A stretch of 51,667 bases of DNA from an uncultured Christensenella sp. (GTDB taxonomy: Bacteria; Bacillota; Clostridia; Christensenellales; UBA3700): the NCBI GenBank assembly GCA_949284695.1, contig CASDWJ010000015.1, positions 1 to 51,667 on the forward strand. Direction: 5' to 3'. Below the pieces are notes generated by a model, which had not been told where the DNA came from, did not search any database, and saw only the letters and a list, made by a program, of their open reading frames with translations. Below, in pieces: positions 6,407 to 28,728 of the stretch. The position numbers and the translations under genes are program-made. How positions within the stretch are numbered: position 1 is the stretch's first letter; each line of letters starts with the position of its first letter.

Positions 6407-7146
6407 AGTTTTATATCCTTCACCGCTTCAAAAAGCGCGGTATCGTTGAAGTTGAGTCTGACGGGCGAGACCGTGGCATACCCGTCGGCGTTGAGCACCA
6501 CGTCGGTGTTGCCGTCGTTGTTTTCGTCGGCAAGCGGATAGCCCGTGATAAAATATCCGCTTCCCTCGACGTACTGATACTCGTCGTTGTATTTTCTGTC
6601 GCCGGTCGTCGAAAATCTGACTCCCTTCAATGCGGGAGGAACGGACGGAAAATTGATATTGAAGATAGTATTCTTATCTGTCGGGAGGAGTCCTATAAGC
6701 AATTCGAGATTTTTCGCCACGAAGTCTGCAACGTACGAATAGTCGCCGTCCTTGCAGTCGTATGACACCGCAATGCCGTAAACTTCGTGCATACACGCTT
6801 CGAGCGCGGCGTTCACCGTGCCCGAATACGCTATATCCGTGCCGATATTGCAGGTATTGTTTATTCCGCTTATCACGACATCGGGCTTGTCTCCCTTCAG
6901 TATCGTGTCTATCCCGAACTTGGTGCAATCGGACGGCGTGCCGTTGAGAATGTAGCTTTCAAAATTTTCCGAAACAGCCATCTGCATATAATTCAGCGCG
7001 CTGTGGAAGGTCAGGCTCCTGCTGCTCCCGCTCCTCTCCGAATCGGGCGCGATTACGGTAACGCTGTGTTCTTGTGCAAGTCTTTCGGCAAGCGAGAGTA
7101 TCCCTTTTGCATAAAGTCCGTCGTCGTTTACGAGTAAAATTTTCAT
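6403..7146 (-). CDS. surE: 5'/3'-nucleotidase SurE
   Basis: A 247-residue SurE nucleotidase, a metal-dependent phosphatase acting on nucleoside monophosphates. The N-terminal VNDDGLYAKG motif carries the metal-binding pair D8/D9, and the S-x-N segment SGINNTCNIGTD and the GTPSDC motif are present. The start has no Shine-Dalgarno sequence. The -10 element of the promoter at 7153-7181 ends six bases before the ATG, so the mRNA is predicted to be leaderless. First gene of its operon. Confidence 0.94.
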   Translation of the reverse strand: MKILLVNDDGLYAKGILSLAERLAQEHSVTVIAPDSERSGSSRSLTFHSALNYMQMAVSENFESYILNGTPSDCTKFGIDTILKGDKPDVVISGINNTCNIGTDIAYSGTVNAALEACMHEVYGIAVSYDCKDGDYSYVADFVAKNLELLIGLLPTDKNTIFNINFPSVPPALKGVRFSTTGDRKYNDEYQYVEGSGYFITGYPLADENNDGNTDVVLNADGYATVSPVRLNFNDTALFEAVKDIKL

Positions 7147-7152
7147 AACTCT

Positions 7153-7181
7153 ATATTACACGAAGCGCGCGCTTTTGTAAA
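7153..7181 (-). promoter_or_regulatory. surE promoter, predicted leaderless start
   Basis: Read on the minus strand: -35 TTTACA (7176-7181), 17-base spacer, -10 TAATAT (7153-7158), then 6 bases (AGAGTT), then the surE ATG. A start 7 bases past the -10 falls on the A of the start codon. It lies just downstream of the oad operon terminator. Confidence 0.75.
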
Positions 7182-7211
7182 CAAAAACCACCCGCGCAGT
7201 ACCGAAATACA

Positions 7212-7239
7212 AAGAAAAAGCCGCGCCATAGGGCGCGGC
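7212..7239 (-). terminator. Intrinsic terminator of the Na+-pump decarboxylase operon
   Basis: An 8-bp stem GCCGCGCC/GGCGCGGC with a 4-base loop, followed on the minus strand by TTTTTCTTTG. It lies 18 bases after the oadA stop codon. Confidence 0.9.
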
Positions 7240-7257
7240 GATATTCTCTTATGTCGA

Positions 7258-8649
7258 TCAGACGGGCTGAATGCCGTTTTTAACGTCGCCCACTTCGCTG
7301 TCCACCTTGTACTTGTTGGCCTGACGGTACTTGAAGTAGTTGAGCGCAACCTGCGGGAAAAGCGCGTAAGACAAAACGTCCTCGTCCTGTTCGATATACT
7401 CCTTGATCTCCTCGCGGTAAGAAGCAAGCTCGGGCTTGATCAGATCTGCGGGACGGCAGGTGATCGGCTTTTCGTCGCCGAGTACCTTCTTGACGATCTC
7501 GGGATTGGGATCTGCGGGAAGTTTGCCGTATTTTCCTCTCAGAACGTCCTTTGTCTCTGCGGATACCATCTTATATCTCTCTCCGCTGATGACGTTGAAC
7601 ACTGCCTGAGTGCCGACGATCTGGCTGGTCGGGGTGACGAGCGGCGGATAACCGAGATCCTTTCTGACGTTGGGGACTTCTGCGAGAACTTCGTCGTATC
7701 TGTCCATCGCGCCCAGCTTCTTGAGCTGTCCGACGAGGTTGGAAAGCATACCGCCCGGTACCTGATAGATCAGCGCGCGGACGTCGGTCTTGAGCGACTT
7801 TTCTGTCAGCCAGCCGTCTTTCTTGAGTCTCTCTGCGACCTTGTCGAAATAAGACGAAAGCTCGTTGAGCGCCTTGAGGTCGAGACCGGTGTCGTACTCG
7901 GTGCCCTGAAGAATAGCGACCATAGGCTCGGTTGCGGGCTGAGAAGTGCCGTTGCCGAGAGCGGAAAGCGCGCAGTCGATGATGTCTACGCCCGCCTCGA
8001 TCGCCTTGAGGTAGGTCATATTGCCCGTGCCCGAAGTCTGGTGAGTATGCAGATGAACGGGAACTTTTACCACGCTCTTGATACCCTTGACGAGTTCATA
8101 TGCGGTGTAAGGCAGAAGTATGCCCGCCATATCCTTTATGCAGATGATGTCAGCGCCCATATCTTCAAGCTCTTTTGCGAGTTTGATGAAATATTCGTTG
8201 GTGTGGACGGGACTGGTCGTGTACGAAATGGTAGCTTCGCAGATGCCGCCGTACTTCTTGCAGCTGTCCATCGCCTGCTTCATATTTCTCGTATCGTTGA
8301 GCGCGTCGAAAATCCTGATGATGTCTATGCCGTTTTCGATCGACTTCTTGACGAACTCGTCGACCACGTCGTCGGCATAGTGCTTGTAGCCGAGGATGTT
8401 CTGACCGCGCAGAAGCATCTGCAACTTGGTGTTGGGCATAGCCTTCTTGAGCTGACGGAGTCTCTCCCACGGATCCTCGTTGAGGAATCTGAGGCAGGAG
8501 TCGAACGTAGCGCCGCCCCAGCACTCGATAGAATAATATCCCACTTTGTCGAGTTTGGACGCGACGGGAAGCATCTCGTCCAGACGCATACGGGTCGCCG
8601 CCTGCGACTGGTGAGCGTCTCTGAGTATAGTTTCTGTAATTTTAACCAT
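7258..8649 (-). CDS. oadA: Oxaloacetate decarboxylase alpha / pyruvate carboxyltransferase (5S-like) subunit
   Basis: A 463-residue HMGL-like TIM barrel carboxyltransferase. It moves CO2 between oxaloacetate or pyruvate and carboxybiotin. Metal ligands fit D11 (ILRDAHQS) and H201/H203 (HLHTHQTSG), and K172 (IKDMAG) is the expected carbamylated lysine. The C-terminal biotin domain found in many OadA proteins is absent; the carrier is the separate protein at 10066-10437. In this it matches the 5S subunit of transcarboxylase. Last gene of the operon, SD GAGG before ATG 8649. Confidence 0.93.
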   Translation of the reverse strand: MVKITETILRDAHQSQAATRMRLDEMLPVASKLDKVGYYSIECWGGATFDSCLRFLNEDPWERLRQLKKAMPNTKLQMLLRGQNILGYKHYADDVVDEFVKKSIENGIDIIRIFDALNDTRNMKQAMDSCKKYGGICEATISYTTSPVHTNEYFIKLAKELEDMGADIICIKDMAGILLPYTAYELVKGIKSVVKVPVHLHTHQTSGTGNMTYLKAIEAGVDIIDCALSALGNGTSQPATEPMVAILQGTEYDTGLDLKALNELSSYFDKVAERLKKDGWLTEKSLKTDVRALIYQVPGGMLSNLVGQLKKLGAMDRYDEVLAEVPNVRKDLGYPPLVTPTSQIVGTQAVFNVISGERYKMVSAETKDVLRGKYGKLPADPNPEIVKKVLGDEKPITCRPADLIKPELASYREEIKEYIEQDEDVLSYALFPQVALNYFKYRQANKYKVDSEVGDVKNGIQPV

Positions 8650-8673
8650 ATATTTTTACCTCGTGATTCAATC

Positions 8674-10050
8674 TTATTTGCCGAACAGAGCAAGCAGAAC
8701 GCCTGCCGCAACGGCACTGCCGATAACGCCTGCGACGTTGGGTCCCATAGCGTGCATCAGCAGATAGTTTCTCGGGTTCTCCTCCTGACCGATGTTGTGC
8801 GAAATTCTCGCCGCCATAGGAACTGCGGATACGCCTGCCGAACCGATGAGCGGGTTGACCTTGCCCTTGGAGACCCAGTACATGACCTTGCCAAGAAGCA
8901 AGCCGCCTGCGGTACCGCCCGCGAACGCGAACACGCCGATGACGATGATCTTGAGCGTCTGGAGCGTAATGAACACCTCTGCGGTCGCTTTCGTACCGAC
9001 GAGCACGCCGAGAAGTATCGTAATGATGTTGATGAGCTCGTTTTTGGACGTATTGGTAAGTCTGGGAACGACTTCGGATTCCTTGAACAGGTTACCGAGC
9101 ATCAGCATACCGAGGAGCGGAACAGCACTCGGAAGAATTACGCCTACGACGAGAGTGACGATTATCGGGAATACGACTTTTTCCGTCTTGGAAACAGGTC
9201 TGAGCTGTTCCATTACGACAGATCTTTCCTTCTTGGTCGTCATGAGTTTCATGATAGGCGGCTGAATTATCTTGATGAGCGCCATATACGAATATGCAGC
9301 GACCGCGATTGACGGGAGCAAGTGAGCCGCGAGCTTGGTGGTAACGTAGATAGCCGTAGGACCGTCTGCACCGCCGATGATAGCGATAGCGGACGCCTCT
9401 TCACCCGTAAATCCGATATTGATCGCGATTATGAAGGTAAGGAAGATACCCAGCTGCGCCGCCGCGCCGAGGATAAGGCTCTTGGGGTTGGCGATAAGCG
9501 GACCGAAGTCGGTCATTGCACCGATACCCAGGAAGATAAGCGGCGGATAGATGACCCACTCGACGCCTTTGTACAGGTAATAGAAGATACCCTGATCCGC
9601 AACGACTTCGTGCGTAGACGTTATTGAAGCGCCGGGGAACAGTGCCTCTACTTTTGCGGTTACAGCCGCGACCTTTTCAAGCATACTCATGCCGGTCGTG
9701 TCGATCTGAAGCATCTGAGCAAGCTGCGCGATCGTACCGCTGATTTCTTCGCCGTTGTATTGAAGCACGGCGGACATATCGCTCGCATCGTAGAAAGTAT
9801 ACCCCAAAGTACCGTACAACACGTTGTACGTGCCCGGTATGTTGATGATGAACATACCGAAACCTATCGCGAGGAGCAGGTTGGGCTCGAACTCCTTATA
9901 CACCGCGAGGTAGATCAGAACGCACGCGATAACGAGCATTATCAGATTCTGCCACAGCGGAGTGAGCGAAGTCATGAAACCCGTGCTCATCCAAAGGTTT
10001 TTCAGGGAATCTACAAGGTCAAGCGACAGAATTGTAGATGAAAACGCCAT
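8674..10050 (-). CDS. oadB: Sodium-translocating decarboxylase beta subunit
   Basis: A 458-residue polytopic membrane protein of the OadB/MmdB/GcdB family. It decarboxylates carboxybiotin and exports Na+. The family signature GGADGPTAIY contains the key aspartate D229, and the second ion-site segment GSAGVSAVPMAAR is near the C-terminus. Family members are usually shorter; here a hydrophilic insert at about residues 88-153 (between the second hydrophobic segment and FYYLYKGVEW) adds about 65 residues. SD GGAGG precedes ATG 10050. The gene sits between the biotin carrier and OadA genes. Confidence 0.94.
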   Translation of the reverse strand: MAFSSTILSLDLVDSLKNLWMSTGFMTSLTPLWQNLIMLVIACVLIYLAVYKEFEPNLLLAIGFGMFIINIPGTYNVLYGTLGYTFYDASDMSAVLQYNGEEISGTIAQLAQMLQIDTTGMSMLEKVAAVTAKVEALFPGASITSTHEVVADQGIFYYLYKGVEWVIYPPLIFLGIGAMTDFGPLIANPKSLILGAAAQLGIFLTFIIAINIGFTGEEASAIAIIGGADGPTAIYVTTKLAAHLLPSIAVAAYSYMALIKIIQPPIMKLMTTKKERSVVMEQLRPVSKTEKVVFPIIVTLVVGVILPSAVPLLGMLMLGNLFKESEVVPRLTNTSKNELINIITILLGVLVGTKATAEVFITLQTLKIIVIGVFAFAGGTAGGLLLGKVMYWVSKGKVNPLIGSAGVSAVPMAARISHNIGQEENPRNYLLMHAMGPNVAGVIGSAVAAGVLLALFGK

Positions 10051-10065
10051 TGTTTTGCCTCCGAA

Positions 10066-10437
10066 TTACGCTATCGTGCAGAGCACCGCGCCGGTGTCGA
10101 TATTCGCGCCTTCGCTGACGGAATAGGTGATCACGCCGTCCTTGGTCGCGACTATGGGGGTGTCCATCTTCATCGCTTCGAGGATAACGACCGTATCGTT
10201 CTGTTTTACTGTCGCGCCGTTGGCGAAACAGAGCTTCTTGACGAGACCGGGCATCTGACTCTTGACCGGTTCGCCCTTTCCTGCCGCCGCGGGAGCCGCA
10301 ACAGGAGCAGCTGCGGGAGCGGGAGCCGCTTTCACAACGGGAGCGGTTGCTACGGGCATAACCGCGCCGACTTCGCCTACTTCTTCGATTTCTACGGCAT
10401 AAGCCTTGCCGTTTACGGTAACATTGAATTTACGCAT
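10066..10437 (-). CDS. Biotin carboxyl carrier protein of the decarboxylase complex
   Basis: A 123-residue biotinyl protein. A short N-terminal beta region (1-30) is followed by an Ala/Pro-rich flexible linker (31-55) and a biotinyl domain with the EAMKMDTP motif, in which K90 is the biotinylated lysine. This is the 1.3S-type or MmdC/GcdC-type carrier that shuttles CO2 between the cytosolic carboxyltransferases and the membrane beta subunit. SD GAGAGG precedes the ATG. Confidence 0.94.
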   Translation of the reverse strand: MRKFNVTVNGKAYAVEIEEVGEVGAVMPVATAPVVKAAPAPAAAPVAAPAAAGKGEPVKSQMPGLVKKLCFANGATVKQNDTVVILEAMKMDTPIVATKDGVITYSVSEGANIDTGAVLCTIA

Positions 10438-10456
10438 ATATATTATCCTCTCTCAA

Positions 10457-10897
10457 TTATTTAATTTCTCTGATGGAGCGGACCCTGAACGGGAGATCGC
10501 TCATTTCGACAGCCTCTGCGCCGTAATACGCCGCGATAGCCGCCGTTATTGCCGCAACAACTTCTTCTTCGTCAGAATCTGCAACGACGGGAGCGGGGAT
10601 TTCCTTCACCTCGTCGACGACAGGAACTTCGTTGCCTTTTTTCGCCGCAATCATCGCGGGCAAATGTTGCAGATACGCAACAGCCTTGATGATGACAATA
10701 AGCAGGATAAGCACGACGAATACCATGCCGAGTCCCATGACGAAGACAAGCAGACCCGTAACTGTACGCTCGCCGAATCCCATATCCTTGATGCCGAGTG
10801 CGTCGGGACTACCCTCGGGGTCGCACGCGATAAGCACGCTTGACATCAAGACTATAAGCACGAGTATTACGGATATCAAAGCAAGTCTTTTCTTCAT
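10457..10897 (-). CDS. oadG: OadG-family gamma/delta subunit of the sodium pump
   Basis: A 146-residue small membrane protein. It has an N-terminal hydrophobic segment (1-24) ending in LIACD, which resembles a lipobox, and a second membrane segment (about 47-74, LLVFVMGLGMVFVVL). A cytosolic tail ends in the recurrent FRVRSIREIK of clostridial OadG proteins. OadG anchors the carboxyltransferase to the beta subunit. Whether the first segment is cleaved or lipidated is unclear. It follows the carboxyltransferase gene by 10 bases. Confidence 0.85.
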   Translation of the reverse strand: MKKRLALISVILVLIVLMSSVLIACDPEGSPDALGIKDMGFGERTVTGLLVFVMGLGMVFVVLILLIVIIKAVAYLQHLPAMIAAKKGNEVPVVDEVKEIPAPVVADSDEEEVVAAITAAIAAYYGAEAVEMSDLPFRVRSIREIK

Positions 10898-10907
10898 ACT
10901 ACTCTCC

Positions 10908-12314
10908 TCAGATACCGAGCAGCATCATAAGCGCCGACGCGATATAGGGACGCAGATTCTTCGCTTCGACTACGTTGTCGATGTAGCCTTCCTGCGCGCC
11001 GAGCATCGGGTTTGCCTGTATCTTTGCATATTCTTCGGCAAGTTTGGCTCTCGTCTTTTCAACGTCTTTAGCCTTGCCGAGCTGATCGCTCATAAGTGCG
11101 TTGACTGCAGTCTCGCCGCTTATCGGAGAGACGACCGCGTTCTGAGTAGCGAGCGTATAGTCGAAACCGATGCCCTTGCTCATCAGCACGCTGTAACCGA
11201 AGCCGATCGCCTTGCCGACAGCCACGCCGATCTTGTCGACAGAGCTGTTTGCGACGGTGGCGACGAGATCGCCCGTTACTTTAGCCGCGCCCGCGAGTTC
11301 TTCTTCAAGGGTCGGGTTTACGCCGAGAGTGTCTACGAGGGTCACGAGCGGAATGTCGAAGCCGTCGAGTTTCTCGATGAAAGAAGTCAGCTTTTTCACG
11401 CCGTCCATGCTGATATAACCGTCGCCGACCTTGCTGTCGGTAGCCGCTATACCTACGCTGATACCGTTGATCCTGGCAAGAGCGCAAACCACTTCGGGTG
11501 CGTATTCGCCGCAATAATCGACGTATTCGCCGTTGTCGACGACAGCTTTCACTTTTGCCGCCGCGGAACACTCCTTGTTGAGCGCCGCGCTTACGCGGTT
11601 GGGATCGTCGATGGCTTCTTCTTCGTCAGCCGCAAGCAGAATACCCGTCAGAGCCGTCAGCTGCTTCTTGAGATCAGTTTCGCTCTTGTAGACGAACTGC
11701 GCGATATCGCTGCCCTTCTTGCGTGCCTTGTAACCGATCATATCCGCAAACTTGGGATAGTCCTTCTCTTTGGAAGCGAGATACATCGGCGAGTTGACCG
11801 ACAGAATCGCGCTTTCGGACATAAACACAAAGTCCGCCATTGCCGCAAACGACGCCATCATGCCGACCGCGTTGCCCTTGACAATACAAAAATGAGGCAC
11901 CTGACCGCTTACGATAGCCGCTTCTGCAAGCACTTTCGCAAAGCCTTCAAGTACGCTCACTCCTTCGCCCACTCTTGCGCCCGCACAATCGATGACGGAA
12001 ATCAGCGGGGTACCGGTCTTGACCGCTCTCTGCATGCATCTGACGATCTTGTCAGCGTGCGCCTTGCCGAGACTTCCCTTGAGGACTTCCGCATTCTGAG
12101 CAAACACGTGGAAGGGGCTTCCGTTTACGGTAGCGTATCCGGTAACAACGCCTTCGCCGAGCGCGCTTGCAGCGTCGTCGAAGCCCTTGCCGGTAACGAA
12201 CACGTCGGTTTCGACAAAACTGCCTTTGTCGACGATCCCGTCAAGAAAACTTCTGACTTTAGAGCAAGCTTTTTCGATCGCTTTGGCGCTGACCGTGAGA
12301 TTGCTGTTCTCCAT
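10908..12314 (-). CDS. Acyl-CoA carboxyltransferase-type subunit (MmdA/12S-like), divergent
   Basis: A 468-residue crotonase-fold carboxyltransferase, shorter than the roughly 510 residues usual for MmdA or PccB. Both halves are recognisable: GEGVVTGYATVNGSPFHVFA, then GSLGKAHADKIVRCM, and a C-terminal half with VTLVDTLGVNPTLEEELAGA. The usual SGGARIQEG loop reads CAGARVGEG, the usual GPCAGGAVY reads GNAVGMMASF, and the C-terminal GGAY segment reads IGFGYSVLM, so the oxyanion loops differ from typical members. It heads the operon with the Na+ pump and a 5S-like subunit. Methylmalonyl-CoA, malonyl-CoA or glutaconyl-CoA are possible substrates, and none can be assigned. SD GGAGGG is before ATG 12314. 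Confidence 0.85.
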   Translation of the reverse strand: MENSNLTVSAKAIEKACSKVRSFLDGIVDKGSFVETDVFVTGKGFDDAASALGEGVVTGYATVNGSPFHVFAQNAEVLKGSLGKAHADKIVRCMQRAVKTGTPLISVIDCAGARVGEGVSVLEGFAKVLAEAAIVSGQVPHFCIVKGNAVGMMASFAAMADFVFMSESAILSVNSPMYLASKEKDYPKFADMIGYKARKKGSDIAQFVYKSETDLKKQLTALTGILLAADEEEAIDDPNRVSAALNKECSAAAKVKAVVDNGEYVDYCGEYAPEVVCALARINGISVGIAATDSKVGDGYISMDGVKKLTSFIEKLDGFDIPLVTLVDTLGVNPTLEEELAGAAKVTGDLVATVANSSVDKIGVAVGKAIGFGYSVLMSKGIGFDYTLATQNAVVSPISGETAVNALMSDQLGKAKDVEKTRAKLAEEYAKIQANPMLGAQEGYIDNVVEAKNLRPYIASALMMLLGI

Positions 12315-12376
12315 ATTAAACCCTCCAAAAATATATAAAGTTTTAATTATCTATTGAATAATTTACACCATTACAC

Positions 12377-12405
12377 ATTATAAATATTTATACCCTAAAA
12401 ATCAA
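12377..12405 (-). promoter_or_regulatory. Promoter of the Na+-pump decarboxylase operon
   Basis: Minus strand: -35 TTGATT (12400-12405), 17-base spacer, -10 TATAAT (12377-12382). Predicted start near 12370, giving a leader of about 55 bases that contains the SD GGAGGG. Confidence 0.8.
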
Positions 12406-12423
12406 CTAAATTTCAGCTAAATT
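12402..12423 (-). promoter_or_regulatory. Tandem 11-bp direct repeat overlapping the -35 box
   Basis: Minus strand AATTTAGCTGA followed directly by AATTTAGTTGA, one mismatch. The second copy runs into the -35 hexamer of the operon promoter, a position suited to an activator or repressor. The binder is unknown. Confidence 0.5.
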
Positions 12424-12448
12424 CGACGCGTGAATGACAAAAATTTCA

Positions 12449-12466
12449 CATTACTGTTTTGTAATG
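12449..12466. repeat. Inverted repeat CATTAC-N6-GTAATG
   Basis: A 6-bp perfect dyad with a 6-base spacer, about 45 bases upstream of the main operon promoter and downstream of the second promoter candidate at 12521-12526. It could be an operator, for example for the nearby TetR protein; this is inference. Confidence 0.4.
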
Positions 12467-12520
12467 GTTATTATGATTTAACGCCGGCTTTTACCCTCGG
12501 GAAACGTACACAAATGAGTA

Positions 12521-12526
12521 ATTATA
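12521..12526 (-). promoter_or_regulatory. Possible second upstream promoter (extended -10)
   Basis: Minus strand TATGCTATAAT, an extended -10 (TG-N-TATAAT) without a good -35. If used, it would give a leader of about 200 bases across the repeats at 12402-12466. The rest of this 451-base intergenic stretch (12315-12765) is AT-rich with no gene. Confidence 0.4.
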
Positions 12527-12708
12527 GCATACTAAATACTCAAAGACAGTGCCAACGGGTAACAAAATCCTTTTCGCAGGCTTTCAGGCAAATATCGGGT
12601 TTTTTATGAGCCGCACGCGCCGCCGTCCCTTCGTATCGGCGACGCACGTTTTTGTATTTCTTTGCACGTCTCATAATATATATTGATATATAATATCTTA
12701 TGTTCTTG

Positions 12709-12748
12709 CAAAACAAAGTCGGTCGCCTCAGAAAGCGACCGACTTTGT
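12709..12748 (-). terminator. Strong terminator after the TetR gene
   Basis: A perfect 14-bp stem (12713-12726 with 12735-12748) and an 8-base loop, followed on the minus strand by TTTTGC. It starts 17 bases after the TetR stop and separates that gene from the decarboxylase operon. Confidence 0.88.
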
Positions 12749-12765
12749 GCAAAAAACTTCATATT

Positions 12766-13392
12766 TCAGAGGCGAAAATATTTATCGGCAAAGATAGCCT
12801 GCACAATCATTGCCGCGCCCTTGATCGTAAGTAGCGTACCCGTCAGCGACGCAAGCGACATCGCGCCCGATACAGGGTCGAGAAATGCGACTATCCCTGC
12901 CACGATCATGAGCACGTCTTCTACGAGACCGTCGTAGAGCCACCTCGACACGTGTCCGTACAAAAGATTTTCGTAGAACGCAGTCACTATACGTCTGGTT
13001 TCCTCGTCCGTTCCGTAACTGCCGAAATACTTGTCGATATACGTCGCGACGCAGTATTCGCACGTTTCCCACAAGTATTTTTCGAATATCTCGCGAGCGG
13101 TCGAATTGTATACGTGCATCATTGCCTTTTTGTTTTTAAGCGTGAATTCGAGAGAATATCTGATGCAGTCTTTGAAAGTGTCCATCGTCGGATATTTTTC
13201 AGTCAGATCGTTCAAAGCGTCCTTCATCAGTACGCGCATAAGCGCGGGCACGTCCTCGAAATGGTAATAAAACGAATTTCTGCTTATGCCGCAATCGTCG
13301 GCGATGTCTTTGACCGTGATCTTGTTGAGCGGTCTCTCGTTGAGCAGTTTCATAAAGGAAGCCTTGATGGCTCTTACTGTAAAATCCGGCAT
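12766..13392 (-). CDS. TetR/AcrR-family transcriptional regulator with hydrophobic C-terminal extension
   Basis: A 208-residue regulator. The N-terminal helix-turn-helix is clear (about 25-47: TVKDIADDCGISRNSFYYHF). The middle (50-160) is a helical ligand-binding domain. The last 45 residues (about 163-208) are unusually hydrophobic for TetR, with a DPVSGAMSLASL turn and GTLLTIKGAAMIVQAIF, which loosely recalls one repeat of DUF308/HdeD membrane proteins. SD GGAGAG precedes the ATG. It is encoded just upstream of the Na+-pump operon in the same direction but behind its own terminator, so it is a candidate local regulator; its ligand is unknown. Confidence 0.85.
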   Translation of the reverse strand: MPDFTVRAIKASFMKLLNERPLNKITVKDIADDCGISRNSFYYHFEDVPALMRVLMKDALNDLTEKYPTMDTFKDCIRYSLEFTLKNKKAMMHVYNSTAREIFEKYLWETCEYCVATYIDKYFGSYGTDEETRRIVTAFYENLLYGHVSRWLYDGLVEDVLMIVAGIVAFLDPVSGAMSLASLTGTLLTIKGAAMIVQAIFADKYFRL

Positions 13393-13463
13393 GGTCGTCT
13401 CTCCGATACTTGATCTGTATTTATTTTATCATCTGCCCGCCGAGAGCGTAACAGAGCGAAAGT

Positions 13464-13490
13464 AAAAAAATCGCCCCGTGACGGGGCGGT
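13464..13490 (-). terminator. Terminator after rluB
   Basis: GC stem CGCCCC/GGGGCG with a 5-base loop, followed on the minus strand by a run of seven T. It lies 13 bases past the rluB stop codon. A T-rich tract on the other side could also make it work on the plus strand. Confidence 0.88.
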
Positions 13491-13503
13491 GATTTTTTGC
13501 CGT

Positions 13504-19700: not shown

Positions 19701-19729
19701 TTGACAAGCATAGTTTTATCGGATATTAT
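19701..19729 (+). promoter_or_regulatory. lysR promoter, predicted leaderless start
   Basis: TTGACA (19701-19706), 17-base spacer, TATTAT (19724-19729), then 6 bases (ATAAAT), then the ATG of the LysR gene at 19736. A normal start position falls on the start codon. Confidence 0.8.
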
Positions 19730-19735
19730 ATAAAT

Positions 19736-20617
19736 ATGGATATAAGAGAATTAAAGTATTTTATCGCTGTCGCGGATTGCGGAAGCATCACCAAAGCCGC
19801 AGAACAACTTTTCGTCACTCAGCCCAATCTCTCGAGGCAGATACAAAAACTCGAACGCGAGACGGGCAAAAAGCTGATCGAGCGCGGAGCAAGGCAGATC
19901 ATCCTGACAGAGGCGGGCAGACTGCTCTACAAACGCGCGTGCGAGATAGCGGATCTGTTCGAAAAGACGCAGGGAGAACTGCTTTCCGACGACGACAACG
20001 TCGGCGGCAAGGTCACGATAGGCGGCGGAGAATCGTATGCCGTGGGTCTTATCGCTAAGGCGGCGCACGCAGTCGTTTCCCGTTATCCGCACGTGAAATT
20101 CGATTTCTTCAGCGGCGACACGGACGCGGTATGCGAAAAGCTCGACAAGGGTCTCGTCGACTTCGGCGTGCTGATAGAGCCGTCAAGTCCGGAGAAATAC
20201 AACTCCATGAGACTTCCCCTGACCGACACATGGGGTATACTTGCAAGAAAGGACAGCGCTCTGGCGGCGAAAGACGTCGTTTCCGCCGGAGAGCTGAAGG
20301 GTTTGCCGCTGATATTTTCAGTGCACTCCTTCAAGAAAAATCCGATAACGGAGCGCTTCGGCGCGAGTCCCGACAAAATCAACGTCGTCGCGACGTACAA
20401 TCTGTTGTACAACGCGTCGCTTATGGTCGAACAAGGCATCGGCTACGCCGTAGGGATAGACCGCATAATCAACGTCAGCGGCGACAGCAAACTCAAGTTT
20501 CTGCCGTTCGTCCCGCCGCTCGAGACTCACCTCGACGTCGCCTGGAAGAAAAACGGCGAACTCTCGCGTGCCGCAAAAGTCTTTCTTTCTGCTCTGAAAG
20601 ACGTTCTCAACGAATAA
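19736..20617 (+). CDS. LysR-family transcriptional regulator
   Basis: A 293-residue LysR regulator. The winged helix-turn-helix is at residues 1-60 (MDIRELKYFIAVADCGSITK, then LFVTQPNLSRQIQKLE), and the effector-binding domain covers about 90-293. The canonical MDIRELKYF start sets the ATG at 19736; the longer upstream reading has no support. There is no Shine-Dalgarno sequence and the -10 box ends six bases before the ATG, so the mRNA is predicted to be leaderless. It is divergent from the acetyltransferase-flavoprotein-ADH operon and is its likely regulator. The effector is unknown. Confidence 0.93.
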   Translation: MDIRELKYFIAVADCGSITKAAEQLFVTQPNLSRQIQKLERETGKKLIERGARQIILTEAGRLLYKRACEIADLFEKTQGELLSDDDNVGGKVTIGGGESYAVGLIAKAAHAVVSRYPHVKFDFFSGDTDAVCEKLDKGLVDFGVLIEPSSPEKYNSMRLPLTDTWGILARKDSALAAKDVVSAGELKGLPLIFSVHSFKKNPITERFGASPDKINVVATYNLLYNASLMVEQGIGYAVGIDRIINVSGDSKLKFLPFVPPLETHLDVAWKKNGELSRAAKVFLSALKDVLNE

Positions 20618-20620
20618 AGC

Positions 20621-20654
20621 ACAAAAAAACAGGCTTATGCGCCTGTTTTTTTTA
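20621..20654. terminator. Bidirectional terminator between lysR and scpB
   Basis: Stem AAACAGGC/GCCTGTTT (20627-20634 and 20641-20648) with a 6-base loop, flanked by an A-run on the left and a T-run on the right. It can end both the convergent lysR (+) and scpB (-) transcripts. Confidence 0.92.
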
Positions 20655-20670
20655 TTGAACCACATAGTTT

Positions 20671-22297: not shown

Positions 22298-22306
22298 CTC
22301 TCCCCC

Positions 22307-23038
22307 TTACAACCCGAATATCGCGTTGAATATAGATTGCATCATATCTATTATCGCGTTCATATACAGACTGAGCACGTCGAGATAGGGCGAAATGTAC
22401 CCGAGCACGGTAAAGAGCACGAGCAACCCGAGAAGCAGGAACGAGCCGTACCTGTAATTGAACGCAACGTATTTGTTGTCAGGCTTTGCCAGCGTTTCGA
22501 CAAGGCGGAAGCCGTCGAGCGGATAGACCGGGATCAGGTTGAACGCCATCAGCGTAAGGTTTATCAACACGATATACTGCAACAAATATGCAAAATAATA
22601 GAACGCATAATAGCCCGCGGAATATCTGACGAGACCGCCGAGCACCGCCGATTTCGTCGCCGCAAGATACGCCGCGAAAAGCCCCGTCGCGACGAACGCG
22701 ATCAGGAAATTGCACAGCACGCCGGCAAGCGATACCGTGATCATGCCTTTCTTGTAATCTTTGAACCGTCTCGGATCGATGGGTACGGGTTTCGCCCAGC
22801 CGAAGCCGACCACGGCAAGCATCAGAAATCCGATCGGATCGAAGTGCTTGACGGGATTCACGTTGAGCCTTCCCGCGAGTTTTGCGGTGTCGTCACCGTT
22901 CCAGTACGCGACAATGCCGTGCGCGAATTCGTGCATGACTATCGCTATCAGCAATGCGGGAAGATAAGCGAGTATGGATATGAACACCATGCGCTTGTCG
23001 TCCGCGGTCGCAAGTTGTCTGATAAGTGAAATAAGCAT
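22307..23038 (-). CDS. Site-2 protease family (M50) intramembrane metalloprotease
   Basis: A 243-residue polytopic protein. The zinc site is H36-E37-x2-H40 (VMHEFAHG) in the first transmembrane helix, and the second metal motif is NLIPVYPLDGFR. It is the compact YwhC/Rip-type M50 peptidase without a PDZ domain. The start codon overlaps the lysA stop by one base (TGATG), so it is probably translationally coupled. The substrate is unknown. Confidence 0.9.
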   Translation of the reverse strand: MLISLIRQLATADDKRMVFISILAYLPALLIAIVMHEFAHGIVAYWNGDDTAKLAGRLNVNPVKHFDPIGFLMLAVVGFGWAKPVPIDPRRFKDYKKGMITVSLAGVLCNFLIAFVATGLFAAYLAATKSAVLGGLVRYSAGYYAFYYFAYLLQYIVLINLTLMAFNLIPVYPLDGFRLVETLAKPDNKYVAFNYRYGSFLLLGLLVLFTVLGYISPYLDVLSLYMNAIIDMMQSIFNAIFGL

Positions 23039-24357
23039 CAGTCTTTATACTCCACGGATACGTCGTTTCTGACTATATCCTCATAAGTCTGCGGCTTTAC
23101 CGCATAAGCGATTTTGCCGTCCTTGACAAACACGACGGGCGGCACGAAATTGCGGTTGTAGTTGCTCGACATAGAATAATTGTATGCGCCGGTCGTGAAA
23201 ACCGCGATTATGTCGCCGCGCTTTGCCGCGGGAAGCGCGATATCCTTGAGGATTATGTCGCCGCTCTCACAGCATTTGCCCGCAACGGTAACGACTTCGG
23301 TCGCCTTTTCGTCGGCGCGGTTTGCAATGACCGCGTCATATTTCGCGTCGTAAAGCGCGGGACGGATATTGTCCGTCATGCCGCCGTCGATCGCGAGGTA
23401 TTTTCTTATACCTTCGATATCCTTTATCGCTCCGACCGAGTAAAGCGTAACGCCCGCCTCGCCGACTATCGAACGCCCGGGCTCTATCATAAAGAACGGC
23501 TTTTTGATACCCTTTTTCTCAACTGCCTGTTTGAGCGAAGAAGTCAGAAGCGCGACGTAATCGCAATATTCTTTTACGTCGTACCTGGGATCGTCGCCGC
23601 TGTAATAGACCCCGAAACCGCCGCCGAAGTTGAGTTCGTCGACCTCGACTCCCCTGTTCCTGAGCGTGACCACGTAGTCGGTCACTACGTCGACCGCGAG
23701 CGCGAAAGCCTGTTTGTCGAAGATCTGCGAGCCTATATGGCAATGCAGACCCGCAAAGCGCAGATGACTTTTCCTGAGTATCGCGTCGACCGCCTTGTCT
23801 GCATATCCGTTTTTGACCCCGAAGCCGAACTTGGAATCAACCTTAGCCGTCTGTATAAACGAATGAGTGTGCGCTTCAACGCCCGGGTTGACGCGGATGA
23901 GCACTTTCTGTACGAGACCTTTTTCTGCGCACATTGCGTCGAGAAGTTCGATCTCGTCGAAACTGTCGACAACAAAAGTCCCAACGCCCGTCTCAAGCGC
24001 AAGACTTATTTCGCCGACCAGCTTGTTGTTGCCGTGGAAATATGCCTTCTTCATGTCGAAGCCGACCGAATTTGCCGTGTATATCTCGCCGCCCGAGACT
24101 ACGTCGATATACATATTCTCCTGCTTTGCGAGCTCGTATATCGCCTTGCAGGAAAACGCTTTTGACGCATAGGCAACGCCGCCTTCGCCGTAAGTGCTCT
24201 CGACCGTCTCTCTGAAAGCGCGGCACACGCTCCTGATATAGCTCTCGTCCATAACGTAAAGCGGGGTGCCGTATTTTGCGACAAGGTCGACAGCGTCCAC
24301 GCCGCCGATCTGAAGGTGTCCTTTTTCGTTTACATTCATCGTATCTCTGTAATTCAT
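23038..24357 (-). CDS. lysA: Diaminopimelate decarboxylase
   Basis: A 439-residue fold-III PLP enzyme that converts meso-diaminopimelate to lysine. The PLP lysine is K66 (YASKAFSC). Other typical segments are FAGLHCHIGSQIF, ELNFGGGFGVYY, IEPGRSIVGEAG and GKCCESGDI. SD AGGAG precedes ATG 24357. It heads a transcript from the promoter at 24380-24408 that runs into the M50, scpA and scpB genes. Confidence 0.96.
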   Translation of the reverse strand: MNYRDTMNVNEKGHLQIGGVDAVDLVAKYGTPLYVMDESYIRSVCRAFRETVESTYGEGGVAYASKAFSCKAIYELAKQENMYIDVVSGGEIYTANSVGFDMKKAYFHGNNKLVGEISLALETGVGTFVVDSFDEIELLDAMCAEKGLVQKVLIRVNPGVEAHTHSFIQTAKVDSKFGFGVKNGYADKAVDAILRKSHLRFAGLHCHIGSQIFDKQAFALAVDVVTDYVVTLRNRGVEVDELNFGGGFGVYYSGDDPRYDVKEYCDYVALLTSSLKQAVEKKGIKKPFFMIEPGRSIVGEAGVTLYSVGAIKDIEGIRKYLAIDGGMTDNIRPALYDAKYDAVIANRADEKATEVVTVAGKCCESGDIILKDIALPAAKRGDIIAVFTTGAYNYSMSSNYNRNFVPPVVFVKDGKIAYAVKPQTYEDIVRNDVSVEYKD

Positions 24358-24379
24358 ATCATTTCTCCTATACTATAAG

Positions 24380-24408
24380 ATTTTAACAAAAACGCGCCGT
24401 CAAGTCAA
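24380..24408 (-). promoter_or_regulatory. lysA promoter
   Basis: Minus strand: TTGACT (24403-24408), 17-base spacer, TAAAAT (24380-24385). Start near 24373, with the SD in a short leader. Confidence 0.75.
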
Positions 24409-24693
24409 TTTATTGTTTTATAATTATATCCGCGCTTATATGCTCGCATATCAGTATTAAAAACGGTTTAAAATGCGGACAAAGGTGCAGACCTGTATCA
24501 ATATCGGCGAAAATATGATAACGAGAGTATATTTTAGTATTTTTAATGATCGTATTTTTTTAAAATTGAAAATGACTATTTATTATATTTAGATATTATT
24601 TAGTATAATTGCGTATATTTTATTATTGCATATTGTTGAATAGTAAAACAACATAAGTTATCCGACTTTATTTCACGCTCTGCACTAAAAACG
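24409..24693. other. AT-rich intergenic spacer, no gene seen
   Basis: About 285 bases, very AT-rich, with no convincing reading frame, tRNA or terminator. It separates lysA from the DD-carboxypeptidase gene. Confidence 0.6.
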
Positions 24694-24730
24694 AATAAAA
24701 AAATCACGCACCTGACGTGCGCGATTTTTT
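24694..24730 (-). terminator. Terminator after the second DD-carboxypeptidase gene
   Basis: A 10-bp stem with one G-T pair (24702-24711 with 24717-24726) and loop of 5, with T-runs on both sides, so possibly bidirectional. It lies 52 bases past the stop codon at 24783. Confidence 0.85.
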
Positions 24731-24782
24731 AATGTTTACGACAAGTTGCTGTTTGCCGTTCTTCTCAGCCAAAAATAAGTCT

Positions 24783-25991
24783 TCACCGCTTGCCTGCCAT
24801 ATCCTTGATTATATCCCACAAAGTAGCCTTGGGTATATCGCTGTCGCTGACGAGATCGAAGAAATATTCTTTGCCGCCGTGAGTTATCTTAATTCTGCCT
24901 ATCACGTCGCCTTTGCTCACGGGCGCTTTTATCTTGTCGGGCAATTCGTACTCGACCTTTATATCGTCGCCCTTCTTTATCAGCACAGAAGCGTCGACTG
25001 CGGCTACGGGCGTCATCGTCTTAACTCTGCTTTTCTCTACGTCTACGCTTCTCTCTATCTTCTCCCCTTTCCTGCATACGACCTCGTTCCTGAAGTTGGC
25101 GAAAGCATAGTTGAACAGCTTGCAAGCCTCGGCAAATCTCGTCTTGCTGTCGTCCGCGCCTATGACCGTCGCGACAGTCTTAATTCCGTTTCTTTCCGCG
25201 CAAGCCGATACGCAGAATTTTGCCACCGCGGTATATCCCGTCTTACCCCCTATACAGCCGCTGTACTGACGTATCATCTTGTTGGTGTTGGTCAGCGTCG
25301 TGACTCTGCCCGACGGATGAACGAAATCTTCTGTCCATATCTTCGCATAATCGTGATATTTGTCGTATCTGAGAAGATCTCTCGTCATAATATTGACGTC
25401 GCGAGCGGTAGAGTACTGCTCTTTTTCAGACGGCAAACCGGTAGGATTGGCGAACTTCGTGTCGGTCATGCCGAGTTCTTGCGCCTTGGCGTTCATTTCG
25501 TGCACAAAGCCTTCGGCGCTTCCGCTCACTGTCTCCGCAAGCGCTACCGCCGCGTCGTTGGCTGAAGCGACTATCACGCCCTTGAGCAGATCGTCGACAG
25601 TATACTTTTCGTGCGCGTCGAGGAACATCTGACTGCCCCCCATCGACTGCGCGTATTCCGACACGGTTACCTCGTCGTCAACGCTGATTTTGCCCTCGTC
25701 TATCGCCTCGAAAACGAGATCTGCGGTCATTATCTTGACCATGCTCGCTATCTCGTGCTTGCTGTCGGCATTGTAAGCGTAAAGCTCTGCGCCCGTCGCA
25801 TAGTCGGCAAGATATGCCGAATGGCAATTGACGCTCAGGCTATCCGAATTTCCCGTGTCTGCCGTATACTCCGCATTGCCTGCAACTAATGCGGTTTCAA
25901 CTTCGGATATTTCACTTGCAGTCGCCGTTCCAGAACAGACCGCCGCGGCAACGGCGAGCAACACCGAAGATATGATCAGTTTTTTCTTCAT
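24783..25991 (-). CDS. D-alanyl-D-alanine carboxypeptidase (PBP5 family)
   Basis: A 402-residue secreted PBP5-type enzyme. It has a signal peptide (1-26: KKKLIISSVLLAVAAAVCSG), S83-x2-K86 (IASMVKIM), SAND (VASANDAAVA) and KTG (GKTGYTAVAKFC). The C-terminal region (about 300-402) is the PBP5 beta domain with a final amphipathic helix likely to touch the membrane. SD AGAGGTG before ATG 25991. It is a second copy in the window; the other one is the larger protein at 14156. It is probably the housekeeping enzyme, an inference from context only. Confidence 0.92.
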   Translation of the reverse strand: MKKKLIISSVLLAVAAAVCSGTATASEISEVETALVAGNAEYTADTGNSDSLSVNCHSAYLADYATGAELYAYNADSKHEIASMVKIMTADLVFEAIDEGKISVDDEVTVSEYAQSMGGSQMFLDAHEKYTVDDLLKGVIVASANDAAVALAETVSGSAEGFVHEMNAKAQELGMTDTKFANPTGLPSEKEQYSTARDVNIMTRDLLRYDKYHDYAKIWTEDFVHPSGRVTTLTNTNKMIRQYSGCIGGKTGYTAVAKFCVSACAERNGIKTVATVIGADDSKTRFAEACKLFNYAFANFRNEVVCRKGEKIERSVDVEKSRVKTMTPVAAVDASVLIKKGDDIKVEYELPDKIKAPVSKGDVIGRIKITHGGKEYFFDLVSDSDIPKATLWDIIKDMAGKR

Positions 25992-26026
25992 ATTTCACCT
26001 CTCTTTAAAGATTGTGATTAGTATAA

Positions 26027-26053
26027 GAAAAAAGCGCCGCAAATATGCGACGC
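26027..26053 (-). terminator. Terminator after the VbhA-like gene
   Basis: Stem GCGTCGC/GCGGCGC with one T-G pair and a 6-base loop, followed on the minus strand by six T. It lies 89 bases past the small-protein stop at 26142 and ends the deoB transcript. Confidence 0.85.
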
Positions 26054-26141
26054 AACTGCTTTCGGTGCTCTGCCTGTACCGTTTTATTTCAATGCGTATG
26101 ACAAACAACCGCCGACTATCGTTACGGCTTGTTGAAATCGT

Positions 26142-26336
26142 TTAATTTTTCTTGTAATTTACAATCACTTCAGACATAAGTTCGTCTTCGGTCATTTCTC
26201 CTGCCAGATACTTTCTGAGACTTTTTTCAGTTTCCGGCTCTACGTCCATACCTTCGATACCCCATATCGCTTTGATATCGCTGATCTTTCTATCGATCTC
26301 TTGCTGAGTCAGTTTCTTTTCTTTTCCTTTCTGCAT
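26142..26336 (-). CDS. Small VbhA-like (Fic antitoxin-type) protein
   Basis: A 64-residue protein. After a basic start, KISDIKAIWGIEGMDVEPET and KYLAGEMTEDELMSEV resemble the antitoxin VbhA family, in which a helix carrying [S/T]-x3-E-[G/N] blocks the ATP site of a Fic AMPylase. Here the EG pair is present (GIEG) but the residue four before the Glu is Ile, not Ser or Thr. No Fic-type gene is found in the window, so it may be an orphan. SD AAAGGAGC precedes the ATG. It follows deoB by 12 bases and is co-transcribed with it. Confidence 0.65.
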   Translation of the reverse strand: MQKGKEKKLTQQEIDRKISDIKAIWGIEGMDVEPETEKSLRKYLAGEMTEDELMSEVIVNYKKN

Positions 26337-26348
26337 ACCGTTGCTCCT

Positions 26349-27503
26349 TTAATCGTTCGGCGCGGCGTCGACTTCTTTTACCGTATATTTTACGCCGAAA
26401 AAGTCGGCAATGCGCTCCGCTATATAATAAAATCCGTCTATCGTGCCGAGATTTTTCGCTTTTTTGCCTTTTGTGTAAATGAGAAGCGGCACGTTTTCTC
26501 TCGAATGGTCGGTAGACGGCGTGGACGGGTCGCACCCGTGGTCGGCGGTTATTATCAGCATATCGTCGTCGCCGATTTTCTTCAGAATATCGGGCAAAAT
26601 CCCGTCGAACGCATTGAGACAGTCCGCATATCCTTTCACGTCGTTTCTGTGCCCGTAGACCATGTCGAAATCGACGAAATTGGCAAAGACGAGCGCGTCT
26701 TTTTCCGCTTGATAATTCAGTATACCGTCGCCGACCTCTTTATTGCCGTGCGCAGGAATAGCCTTCGTTATGCCGTAGCCGCAGAATATGTCGCTTATCT
26801 TGCCGACGGACACGACCTCTGTGCCGTTTTCGGCAAGCGCGTTCAGCACGGTTTTCGCGGGCGGCAACAACGCGTAGTCGCGTCTGTCGGGAGTGCGGTA
26901 GAATTTGCCCTGTTTATCTCTCGCGAACGGTCTCGCTATTATCCTTCCCACGCTGTCTTTACCCGACATTATCTTTCTCGCCTTTTCGTAACAGTCGTAA
27001 AGCCTGTCGAGCCCGAACGTCTCCACGCTCGCGGCGATCTGCAATACGCTGTCTGCAGATGTGTATACTATGGGAAGCCCCGTCTTTTCGTGTTCTTCGC
27101 CCAGTTCTTTGATTATCTCTGTGCCGCTCGCCGCCTTGTTGCCGAGCACTCCGTCAACGCCCCACGCGGCGCAAAGTTTATCAATTATGCGCGCAGGGAA
27201 ACCGTCGGGATAAGTCGGATGAGGCGATCTGACGATAAGCCCCGCGATCTCGTAATGCCCGGTCGTAGTGTCCTTTCCTGCCGACTTTTCAACGAGCCGA
27301 GCAAAACTCGCCTCGGGTAAAACTACTGGCGCGCCGAAGTCAATCCCGTCGATATTGTCGAAGCCGAGCGAATGCAGACAGGGAGCGTTTACGTAAGGAT
27401 ATATCGCCTTATAAGTGTTGCTCCCCTCGTCGCCGAACACCGCCGCGTCCGACGCGCCGCCTATGCCAAGACTGTCGAGGACTATCAGATAACAAGTTTT
27501 CAT
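26349..27503 (-). CDS. deoB: Phosphopentomutase
   Basis: A 384-residue alkaline phosphatase-superfamily mutase that interconverts ribose (deoxyribose) 1-phosphate and 5-phosphate. The metal-binding D10 is in VLDSLGIGG, and the active-site threonine fits KDTTTGHYE (T81). Late metal motifs are FVDFDMVYGHRND and ADHGCDPSTPSTDHSRE. The start has no SD; the -10 box ends six bases before ATG, so the mRNA is predicted to be leaderless. No other nucleoside catabolism gene is beside it, which is unusual for deoB. Confidence 0.95.
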   Translation of the reverse strand: MKTCYLIVLDSLGIGGASDAAVFGDEGSNTYKAIYPYVNAPCLHSLGFDNIDGIDFGAPVVLPEASFARLVEKSAGKDTTTGHYEIAGLIVRSPHPTYPDGFPARIIDKLCAAWGVDGVLGNKAASGTEIIKELGEEHEKTGLPIVYTSADSVLQIAASVETFGLDRLYDCYEKARKIMSGKDSVGRIIARPFARDKQGKFYRTPDRRDYALLPPAKTVLNALAENGTEVVSVGKISDIFCGYGITKAIPAHGNKEVGDGILNYQAEKDALVFANFVDFDMVYGHRNDVKGYADCLNAFDGILPDILKKIGDDDMLIITADHGCDPSTPSTDHSRENVPLLIYTKGKKAKNLGTIDGFYYIAERIADFFGVKYTVKEVDAAPND

Positions 27504-27509
27504 AACTAT

Positions 27510-27538
27510 ATTTTAACATCAACGCGGCGGTTTTTCAA
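27510..27538 (-). promoter_or_regulatory. deoB promoter, predicted leaderless start
   Basis: Minus strand: TTGAAA (27533-27538), 17-base spacer, extended -10 TGTTAAAAT with TAAAAT at 27510-27515, then 6 bases (ATAGTT), then the deoB ATG. Confidence 0.8.
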
Positions 27539-27611
27539 TACCTGCGCATATCGTCTCCCCTCTTTTCTTTGCTTTTTTGACAACATAAGCGGTTTTGCGA
27601 GTCGGCGCAGA

Positions 27612-27620
27612 TGCTATAAT
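27612..27620 (+). promoter_or_regulatory. Extended -10 of the Spo0A-C gene, predicted leaderless start
   Basis: TG-C-TATAAT (27612-27620), a perfect extended -10 with no good -35, followed by 6 bases (CTATTC) and the ATG at 27627. There is no Shine-Dalgarno sequence. Confidence 0.75.
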
Positions 27621-27626
27621 CTATTC

Positions 27627-27971
27627 ATGCACAACAAAGCGTCAGTATCCACCTATCTGCTCTCTCTCGGCGTGAAGCCGTCAAGCAAAGGTTACCGCTA
27701 TCTCGTAGAACTGATAACCGCCGCTCTCGACGGCGATGACATTCTCCCGCTGAAGTACGTCGGATACAGAAATCTTTCGCAAAAATACCGCGCGAGCACC
27801 GATTGCGTGGATAAGAATATTCAGAACTGTATTTCCAAAGCCTGGCTCGACGGCGATATCGACGCGCTTTACGGCGAATTCGGCAATACCATAGATATCG
27901 ACAAGGGCAAACCCACCGTCAAGCAATTCATAATGCAGGTATGCGAAAACCTGTCATCGAAAGATGTCTGA
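27627..27971 (+). CDS. Spo0A C-terminal-domain protein without a receiver domain
   Basis: A 114-residue protein that matches the DNA-binding effector domain of Spo0A over almost its whole length: SVSTYLLSLGVKPSSKGYRY, LSQKYRASTDCVDKNIQN, then SKAWLDGDIDALYGEFGNTI and KGKPTVKQFIMQV. The receiver domain is absent, so it is not controlled by phosphorylation of itself. In the recognition helix the arginine-rich SRVERAIRHAIE of B. subtilis Spo0A is replaced by DCVDKNIQNCIS, so its target DNA may differ. The promoter and ATG suggest a leaderless mRNA. It is followed by the SpoIIM-like gene. A role in sporulation control is inference. Confidence 0.88.
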   Translation: MHNKASVSTYLLSLGVKPSSKGYRYLVELITAALDGDDILPLKYVGYRNLSQKYRASTDCVDKNIQNCISKAWLDGDIDALYGEFGNTIDIDKGKPTVKQFIMQVCENLSSKDV

Positions 27972-28075
27972 AAATGCCCGTCGCGCAAGATATCCGCGCC
28001 GGCTTTATCTTTAAGACTCTCGACGCTTTACTGCGTGATTTACGCGAATTTTGCCGCGTTTTGCAATATCCTGTC

Positions 28076-28104
28076 GCATAACGCCCGACCTGCGGGCATA
28101 GAGT
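28076..28104 (+). promoter_or_regulatory. Sigma-E-like promoter of the SpoIIM-like gene, predicted leaderless
   Basis: GCATAAC (28076-28082), 14-base spacer, CATAGAGT (28097-28104). It fits the Bacillus sigma-E pattern KMATATT-N14/15-CATACAHT in part (the ATA core of -35 and CATA---T of -10). Six bases then separate it from the ATG at 28111. Confidence 0.45.
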
Positions 28105-28110
28105 TGTAAT

Positions 28111-28728
28111 ATGCGGAAGGGAAAAAAGAAGTTTTGTCTGAATATCAATTATTTGAAAAACACGGTCGCGGCGTTCGTCGACGAACACTCGGCTCTTATA
28201 GCCGTCGTGCTCTGCGCCTGTCTTACCGGAATCCTTCTCGGCATCGTCGTCGCGGTCAGATTCGGCGATGAATATTACAAACTCAACCTTTTCGCCTCTC
28301 TCAAACTTGGTGAATACGGCAAATTCTCTAACTTCTTCAAGTTCTTTCTTCTCGCACTCGCAACGCTCGCGATAAACTTCACCTGCGTATTCAAAAAATA
28401 TTTCGCCGCACTCGGCTTTCTGTGGACGGCGTTCCTCGGATACCGCTTCGGTCTCTGCGTCGTCGGCGCCACAAACGTCGCGCTTGCGGACGGGATATTG
28501 ACGGCGGTATTCTTCTATCTGCCCCTGCTCGCGGGATACCTGTTCCTGTCTGTCGTATCGATCGGCGCGGCAAGCAGATACTGGATCGCGAAAGGCGCGA
28601 CTCTCACTTGTTCGCGCGCGGTGACGGAATTGCTTTCATTCTACGCGGCGCTTCTGCTTTGCTTCGTCGCGCTTGCCCTCGTCGTCTGCGTGATAATGCC
28701 GTGGGCAGTCGCTCTGATATTGCTCTGA
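28111..28728 (+). CDS. Multi-pass membrane protein, SpoIIM-like
   Basis: A 205-residue protein with about six hydrophobic helices (near 28-50, 75-92, 94-106, 110-130, 135-155, 170-205). The overall pattern, including IAVVLCACLTGILLGIVVAV at the first helix, suggests the SpoIIM/DUF95 family, whose SpoIIM member helps build the DMP (SpoIID-SpoIIM-SpoIIP) peptidoglycan-remodelling complex during engulfment. The match is weak and other membrane families are possible. No Shine-Dalgarno sequence. It follows the Spo0A-C gene by 139 bases. Confidence 0.6.
   Translation: MRKGKKKFCLNINYLKNTVAAFVDEHSALIAVVLCACLTGILLGIVVAVRFGDEYYKLNLFASLKLGEYGKFSNFFKFFLLALATLAINFTCVFKKYFAALGFLWTAFLGYRFGLCVVGATNVALADGILTAVFFYLPLLAGYLFLSVVSIGAASRYWIAKGATLTCSRAVTELLSFYAALLLCFVALALVVCVIMPWAVALILL

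Follow-up and report, generated by a model that had tools for sequence, protein, structure and literature searches.

Predicted leaderless genes with a fixed promoter-to-ATG spacing in a family of Christensenellales

The window analysed here is contig C15 in its full length of 51,667 bases, part of a 1.85 Mb assembly of 46 contigs that is 81% complete. The records nearest to its SurE protein come from uncultured Christensenellaceae and Candidatus Ornithoclostridium, order Christensenellales (NCBI taxonomy), at no more than 88% identity. Four genes of the window have a -10 hexamer that ends exactly six bases before the ATG: surE, lysR (a LysR-family regulator), deoB and the Spo0A-C gene, which encodes a stand-alone Spo0A C-terminal domain. 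This spacing recurs genome-wide and in relatives, and a leaderless messenger RNA (mRNA) is the best reading for all four. It is highly probable, judging from these comparisons, that ordinary sigma-A promoters give rise to leaderless mRNAs at about 3-4% of genes, an arrangement kept by selection in this Christensenellales family. Throughout, f-numbers denote families, g-numbers genera, G-numbers genomes and L-numbers loci; our own genome lies in f1.

A first-pass annotation had grouped these four genes with a fifth, at 28111, as sharing one spacing. The letters and positions that it gave are correct for all five, the six-base gap is present in the four named above, and the -35 boxes that it placed at 17 bases in three genes are indeed found in surE, lysR and deoB (Table 1). 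On inspection, no Shine-Dalgarno (SD) sequence is visible upstream of any of the five, and the spacing is not chance. The protein N-termini begin at the noted ATGs in SurE (MKILLVNDDG), in DeoB (MKTCYLIVLDSLGIGG) and in the helix-turn-helix domain of LysR, and a stop lies no more than three codons upstream in SurE (an open frame of 250 against 247 amino acids) and DeoB (387 against 384). Therefore, these three starts are secure: in each the ATG opens conserved protein sequence, and SurE and DeoB also have a stop close upstream.

The hexamer, the gap and the ATG are observed; RNA polymerase is expected to start 7 nucleotides (nt) after the hexamer, which, with a six-base gap, would place +1 on the A of the ATG. 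The 5'-terminal AUG would be bound by the ribosome without an SD, as work on other bacteria suggests. Selection would hold the arrangement within f1, whose nearest named relatives include Candidatus Ornithoclostridium, and single genes would switch between leaderless and SD-led states.

Genes were called by coding score only, without upstream DNA, in 699 kb (38%) of our own genome and in 400 kb of each of four relatives: G012 and G002 of the same genus, G024 of the same family, and G025 of another family in the order. All plausible ATG starts were scanned for a -10 (TA...T, at least 5 of 6 consensus bases) at each spacing from 0 to 14. A genome-wide count, which the first-pass annotation had named as a check on its claim, shows spacing 6 to be commoner than expected, with a peak in all four f1 genomes: 18 sites in our own, 15 in G012, 13 in G002 and 14 in G024, compared with means of 3.9, 2.8, 1.4 and 4.7 at the other spacings. 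Summed, spacing 6 has 60 sites and the 14 other spacings have a mean of 12.8; the peak is one base wide, without excess at spacing 5 (0-2 sites per f1 genome) or 7 (1-3). Since only 3 of the 18 own sites fall in the window, the other 15 are independent of the sample from which the claim was first made.

Internal in-frame ATGs carry a -10 at spacing 6 in 25 of 10144 cases, compared with 60 of the 2114 starts, and the peak was not found at GTG or TTG starts in the samples. A gene-free count (a -10, then an ATG opening a reading frame of at least 60 codons) peaked weakly at both spacings 6 and 7 (34 and 27 against about 15); we chose the gene-based test because gene-based starts abolished the signal at spacing 7. 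The strict pattern TTGACA..TATAAT-6-ATG occurs in 35 of the 41 genomes searched, our own included, and its reverse has no match.

Sites at spacing 6 also differ from those at other spacings in their surroundings. A -35 box of at least 4/6 accompanies 36 of the 60, compared with 40 of 179 elsewhere (p 1.6e-7), and T stands at -1 in 53 of the 60, compared with 124 of the 179 and with 1032 of all 2114 plausible ATG starts. None of the 60 has a same-strand gene ending within 25 nt upstream, a situation found at 34 of the 179 and at 639 of the 2114; by this proxy of upstream gene distance, the spacing-6 genes would be the first in their transcription units. An SD match is absent in 57 of the 60, but this is partly forced and not independent evidence, because a -10 at -12 to -7 fills the place of the SD.

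The same genes were compared in relatives, as the first-pass annotation had advised, and the spacing is kept across f1 for deoB, surE and the Spo0A-C gene while the surrounding DNA diverges. With a hexamer of at least 4/6 consensus bases including A2 and T6, ending 6 bases 5' of the ATG, spacing 6 is found for deoB in 15 of 17 f1 genomes and 0 of 8 outside f1, for surE in 19 of 19 f1 genomes with the N-terminus in hand and 1 of 10 outside, and for the Spo0A-C gene in 17 of 22 and 0 of 6. These counts leave out the deoB fragments L098-L101, a truncated surE of G010 (L129), two surE matches without a locus, the Spo0A-C loci L160 and L161, and weaker Spo0A matches without loci. Thus the 24 orthologues outside f1 give one weak pass, a 4/6 AT-rich surE match in G030. 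The f1 exceptions for the Spo0A-C gene belong to genera g3 and g5 and have an SD instead in 5 of 5; of the two deoB exceptions, one has an SD. In G012, a gene whose LysR N-terminus is very similar carries TTGACA and, at spacing 6, TAAAAT.

Five pairs of f1 genomes have a median protein identity of about 57-62%; their orthologues retain spacing 6 in 14 of 30 cases, compared with 1 of 79 for all other spacings. Genomes recur among the pairs, so the counts are not all independent. The closer pair of our genome and G012 (84%) keeps spacing 6 in 8 of 9 cases and other spacings in 11 of 26; since the pair is so close, simple relatedness also preserves other spacings. Among 80 SurE records, the filter for spacing 6 accepts 30, of which one also has an SD-like string. 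All 30 are among the first 33 listed, where two others fail and one is too short to judge. The remaining 47 comprise 27 with an SD-like string, Clostridium and Caloramator records having an SD, and 20 with neither feature. Many of the surE upstream regions L242-L274 share TTTAC and a TG before TAAAAT or TAGAAT (an extended -10), at a fixed distance to the ATG.

MiaB, read by eye in 30 chosen genomes, has spacing 6 in 10 of them (7 of 8 in f1, 2 of 2 in f150 and 1 of 2 in f146). It has an SD in G021 of f1 and in both f16 genomes, and spacing 6 was not seen in the rest of the 30. Two f154 copies (L348, L349) show, by eye, an apparent GTG start seven bases after TATAAT, a possible leaderless GUG variant.

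Several observations weigh against the leaderless interpretation. The 5' ends are predicted from sequence, and extra promoters further upstream could also give leadered mRNAs. The surE hexamer matches only 4/6 and fails the strict -10 filter, and with a filter relaxed to 4/6 the peak is lost in the AT-rich background (27 own sites at spacing 6, 49 at 0 and 28 at 13); the looser definition was dropped because this background swamps the peak. Chance would account for about 13 of the 60 sites; 24 of the 60, the Spo0A-C gene among them, lack a -35 of 4/6, with poor boxes at sites such as L022 10500 and L028 1465. Four hexamers (L017 8549, L022 10500, L171 14421 and L199 10891) are the tail of a CATANNNT box; they therefore need not be sigma-A elements and may reflect another sigma factor or chance. 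In G025 spacing 6 does not stand out (4 sites, with a mean of 4.9 at the others), and four pairs with this genome share spacing 6 in 0 of 10 cases and other spacings in 3 of 42.

One alternative is that the promoters are real and the start of the mRNA lies a few bases inside or outside the ATG; translation would then use a downstream start or an unusual short leader in place of a 5'-terminal AUG. The choice of transcription start commonly wobbles by 1-2 bases, the ends discussed here are predicted ones, and the -10 of the two f154 MiaB genes, by eye, lies seven bases before a GTG. Nevertheless, we consider a shifted start quite unlikely: there is no excess at spacing 5 or 7, a T at -1 followed by an A at +1 is a usual initiator, and conserved residues follow directly after the ATG in SurE, DeoB and MiaB. 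Even less can be said for AT-rich DNA before the starts, serving an open mRNA or S1 binding, that would mimic -10 boxes without any promoter. A loose -10 definition does give high counts at many spacings, and in some phyla an AT-rich bias of non-SD genes, at about -20 to -10, has been put down both to S1 and to leaderless promoters (PMC5397173). However, a one-base peak, -35 boxes, the lack of close upstream genes and a hexamer kept amid diverged DNA are unexpected from composition, which makes this explanation extremely improbable.

The first-pass annotation had also proposed that the five genes mark a separate translation class of regulators, sporulation and nucleotide salvage. Own spacing-6 members include DNA polymerase IV, MiaB, NAD kinase, NadD-YqeK, an MMPL transporter, a GNAT protein, a methyltransferase, MurB and SpoIIE; chance would supply about 4 of the 18 own sites. 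The proposed class is not supported, as many of the members that could be identified serve unrelated housekeeping or repair functions. On this ground, and because membership of the Spo0A-C gene varies between genera, a regulon with a special mode of initiation is likewise very unlikely. What speaks for it is that the Spo0A-C and SpoIIE genes are in the set and that the deoB and Spo0A-C promoters stand back to back; the SpoIIE site, however, is almost without a -35 (1/6), and the MurB box is also poor.

With leaderless initiation from sigma-A promoters as the preferred reading, the share of leaderless genes, taken as the excess over background, amounts to about 3% in our genome and G024 and about 4% in G012 and G002. 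In a sample of the order (200 genomes, 33 families), promoter-to-ATG counts (TTGAC-N-TATAAT, then ATG), which are blind to gene context, gave 699 matches at spacing 6 compared with 255 at spacing 9, unevenly by family. An excess at spacing 6 is found in f1, f3, f13, f14, f16, f140, f146, f150 and f154 (p < 0.005 each) and more weakly in f17, f152 (one genome) and f153 (p 0.02-0.03), these p values being uncorrected for 33 families. The rest of the order sample, for example f4, f10, f12, f141 and f145, shows no clear excess. In 32 loci, 31 strict sites were re-found, 22 of them opening a frame of at least 80 codons, compared with 23% of the 1315 ATGs there; from this proportion, some strict sites are not gene starts. 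These counts suggest that the same arrangement exists in a set of other Christensenellales families. A phylum-wide feature was rejected, as spacing 6 is no commoner than spacing 9 among 299 genomes of the phylum (matches in 149 and 158, respectively).

Arrangements of this kind are known from other bacteria. Zheng et al. (2011) describe a TATAAT-like signal just upstream of the start codon that a minority of genes have instead of the SD; in Firmicutes it reads TAtAAT, in some genomes with TG before it, and the cases concentrate in Lactobacillales and Mycoplasma (PMC3160421). The genes described here have the same signal in the place of the SD, but in a Christensenellales family. The first-pass annotation regarded leaderless mRNAs as rare in Bacillota, a view that needs qualification: 8.6% of Streptococcus pyogenes mRNAs are leaderless, 81% of those in common with S. 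agalactiae (PMC6431027), and so are about 2-3% of transcripts in three solventogenic clostridia (PMC9045289). Streptococcus and the present family are both Bacillota with a conserved leaderless set, the 5' ends being mapped there and predicted here, where the share is about 3-4%. Mapped data also give low numbers for C. phytofermentans (4% of one class of transcription start sites, with the ribosome-binding site generally kept; PMC5171806), C. difficile (15 genes; PMC7438776), Enterococcus (under 1%; PMC7724050) and B. amyloliquefaciens (28 mRNAs; PMC4634765). The three clostridial studies (PMC9045289, PMC5171806, PMC7438776) show a similarly low share, whereas the genes described here lack an SD and keep their spacing from genus to genus. 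A search for leaderless genes in Christensenella or Christensenellales found no report on the lineage in the literature covered. As far as that search goes, two things appear new: the lineage, and the way in which single genes switch from leaderless to SD-led states or back. The leaderless kind itself is already known.

Table 1. Promoter elements and genes of the window discussed in the text (TSS, transcription start site; aa, amino acids).
Feature	Positions	Strand	Remarks
surE -35, TTTACA	7176..7181	-	TTTAC retained in several f1 orthologues
surE -10, TAATAT	7153..7158	-	17 bases after -35, 6 bases before ATG
surE, 5'/3'-nucleotidase, predicted leaderless	6403..7146	-	Predicted TSS at A of ATG 7146; PF01975, 4.4e-53
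lysR -35, TTGACA	19701..19706	+	Sequence
lysR -10, TATTAT	19724..19729	+	17 bases after -35, 6 bases before ATG
LysR-family regulator, predicted leaderless	19736..20617	+	Predicted TSS at A 19736; PF00126, PF03466
deoB -35, TTGAAA	27533..27538	-	TTGA here in 11/13 genus orthologues (by eye)
deoB -10, TAAAAT	27510..27515	-	17 bases after -35, 6 bases before ATG
deoB, phosphopentomutase, predicted leaderless	26349..27503	-	Predicted TSS at A of ATG 27503; TIGR01696 and NF003766 above cut-off
Spo0A-C gene -10, TATAAT	27615..27620	+	6 bases before ATG 27627
Stand-alone Spo0A C-terminal DNA-binding domain protein, 114 aa, predicted leaderless	27627..27971	+	PF08769, 1.4e-19
CATAGAGT box	28097..28104	+	Ends 6 bases before ATG; resembles sporulation (sigma-E type) -10
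205-aa hydrophobic protein of no known family, possibly leaderless	28111..28728	+	Conserved in genus beside Spo0A-C gene

The 123-bp region between deoB and the Spo0A-C gene (27504-27626) contains two predicted leaderless promoters back to back. The best -35 match of the Spo0A-C gene at spacing 16-18 is only 2/6. Its product, encoded divergently from deoB, has no receiver domain; Spo0A-C matches occur in 36 of the 41 genomes searched, many of them in frames of full Spo0A length. CGACAA, which we take to be like a Spo0A box, lies upstream of the gene in 4 of 9 close genus members (L134, L135, L136 and L140).

The fifth gene stands apart from the other four. Its box does end at spacing 6, as had been claimed, but CATAGAGT is not a sigma-A-type -10, and the name SpoIIM-like finds no support, as no SpoIIM match was found in Pfam or NCBIfam. 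The upstream DNA resembles KMATATT-N14-CATACANT-like boxes, the consensus of mother-cell sigma-E promoters. By eye, an 8-base CATA box ends 6 bases before the ATG in 7 of 9 close genus orthologues, our own included, and GAATATY-N14-CATAR is found upstream in 6 of the 9; our own copy, with two mismatches in the sigma-E-like -35, is not among the 6. Four more distant genus members were left out of this promoter reading, as their alignments stop short of residue 1. The gene at 28111 may thus be leaderless from a sigma-E-like sporulation promoter, a weaker case than the other four. A sigma-E-like leaderless class, sought in the same samples, gave no clear spacing peak; CATA boxes 5 bases before the ATG are somewhat common in two genomes (8 each). 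L197 9141 (+) and L232 6527 (-) encode similar proteins starting MDYSKYYL, with no Pfam match, and have CATATCTT 5 bases before the ATG, a near -35 and no SD; we note them as a lead only.

Under a broader interpretation, a distinct leaderless gene set would have arisen or been retained in a group of Christensenellales families, held by selection on the exact promoter-AUG spacing, with genes exchanging the SD-led for the leaderless state. The set would reach into sporulation (the Spo0A-C gene, perhaps SpoIIE and the gene at 28111), and these genes could then be adjusted jointly by the state of the initiation machinery. We regard this extension as speculative and rather unlikely.

The predicted leaderless genes would add a Clostridia clade, represented here mostly by metagenome assemblies, to the Bacillota with conserved leaderless genes. 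For annotation, gene finders that model SD sites only may misplace leaderless starts. Moreover, the Spo0A-C and MiaB genes, predicted to be leaderless in one genus and SD-led in another, would offer a natural experiment on the gain and loss of leaders.

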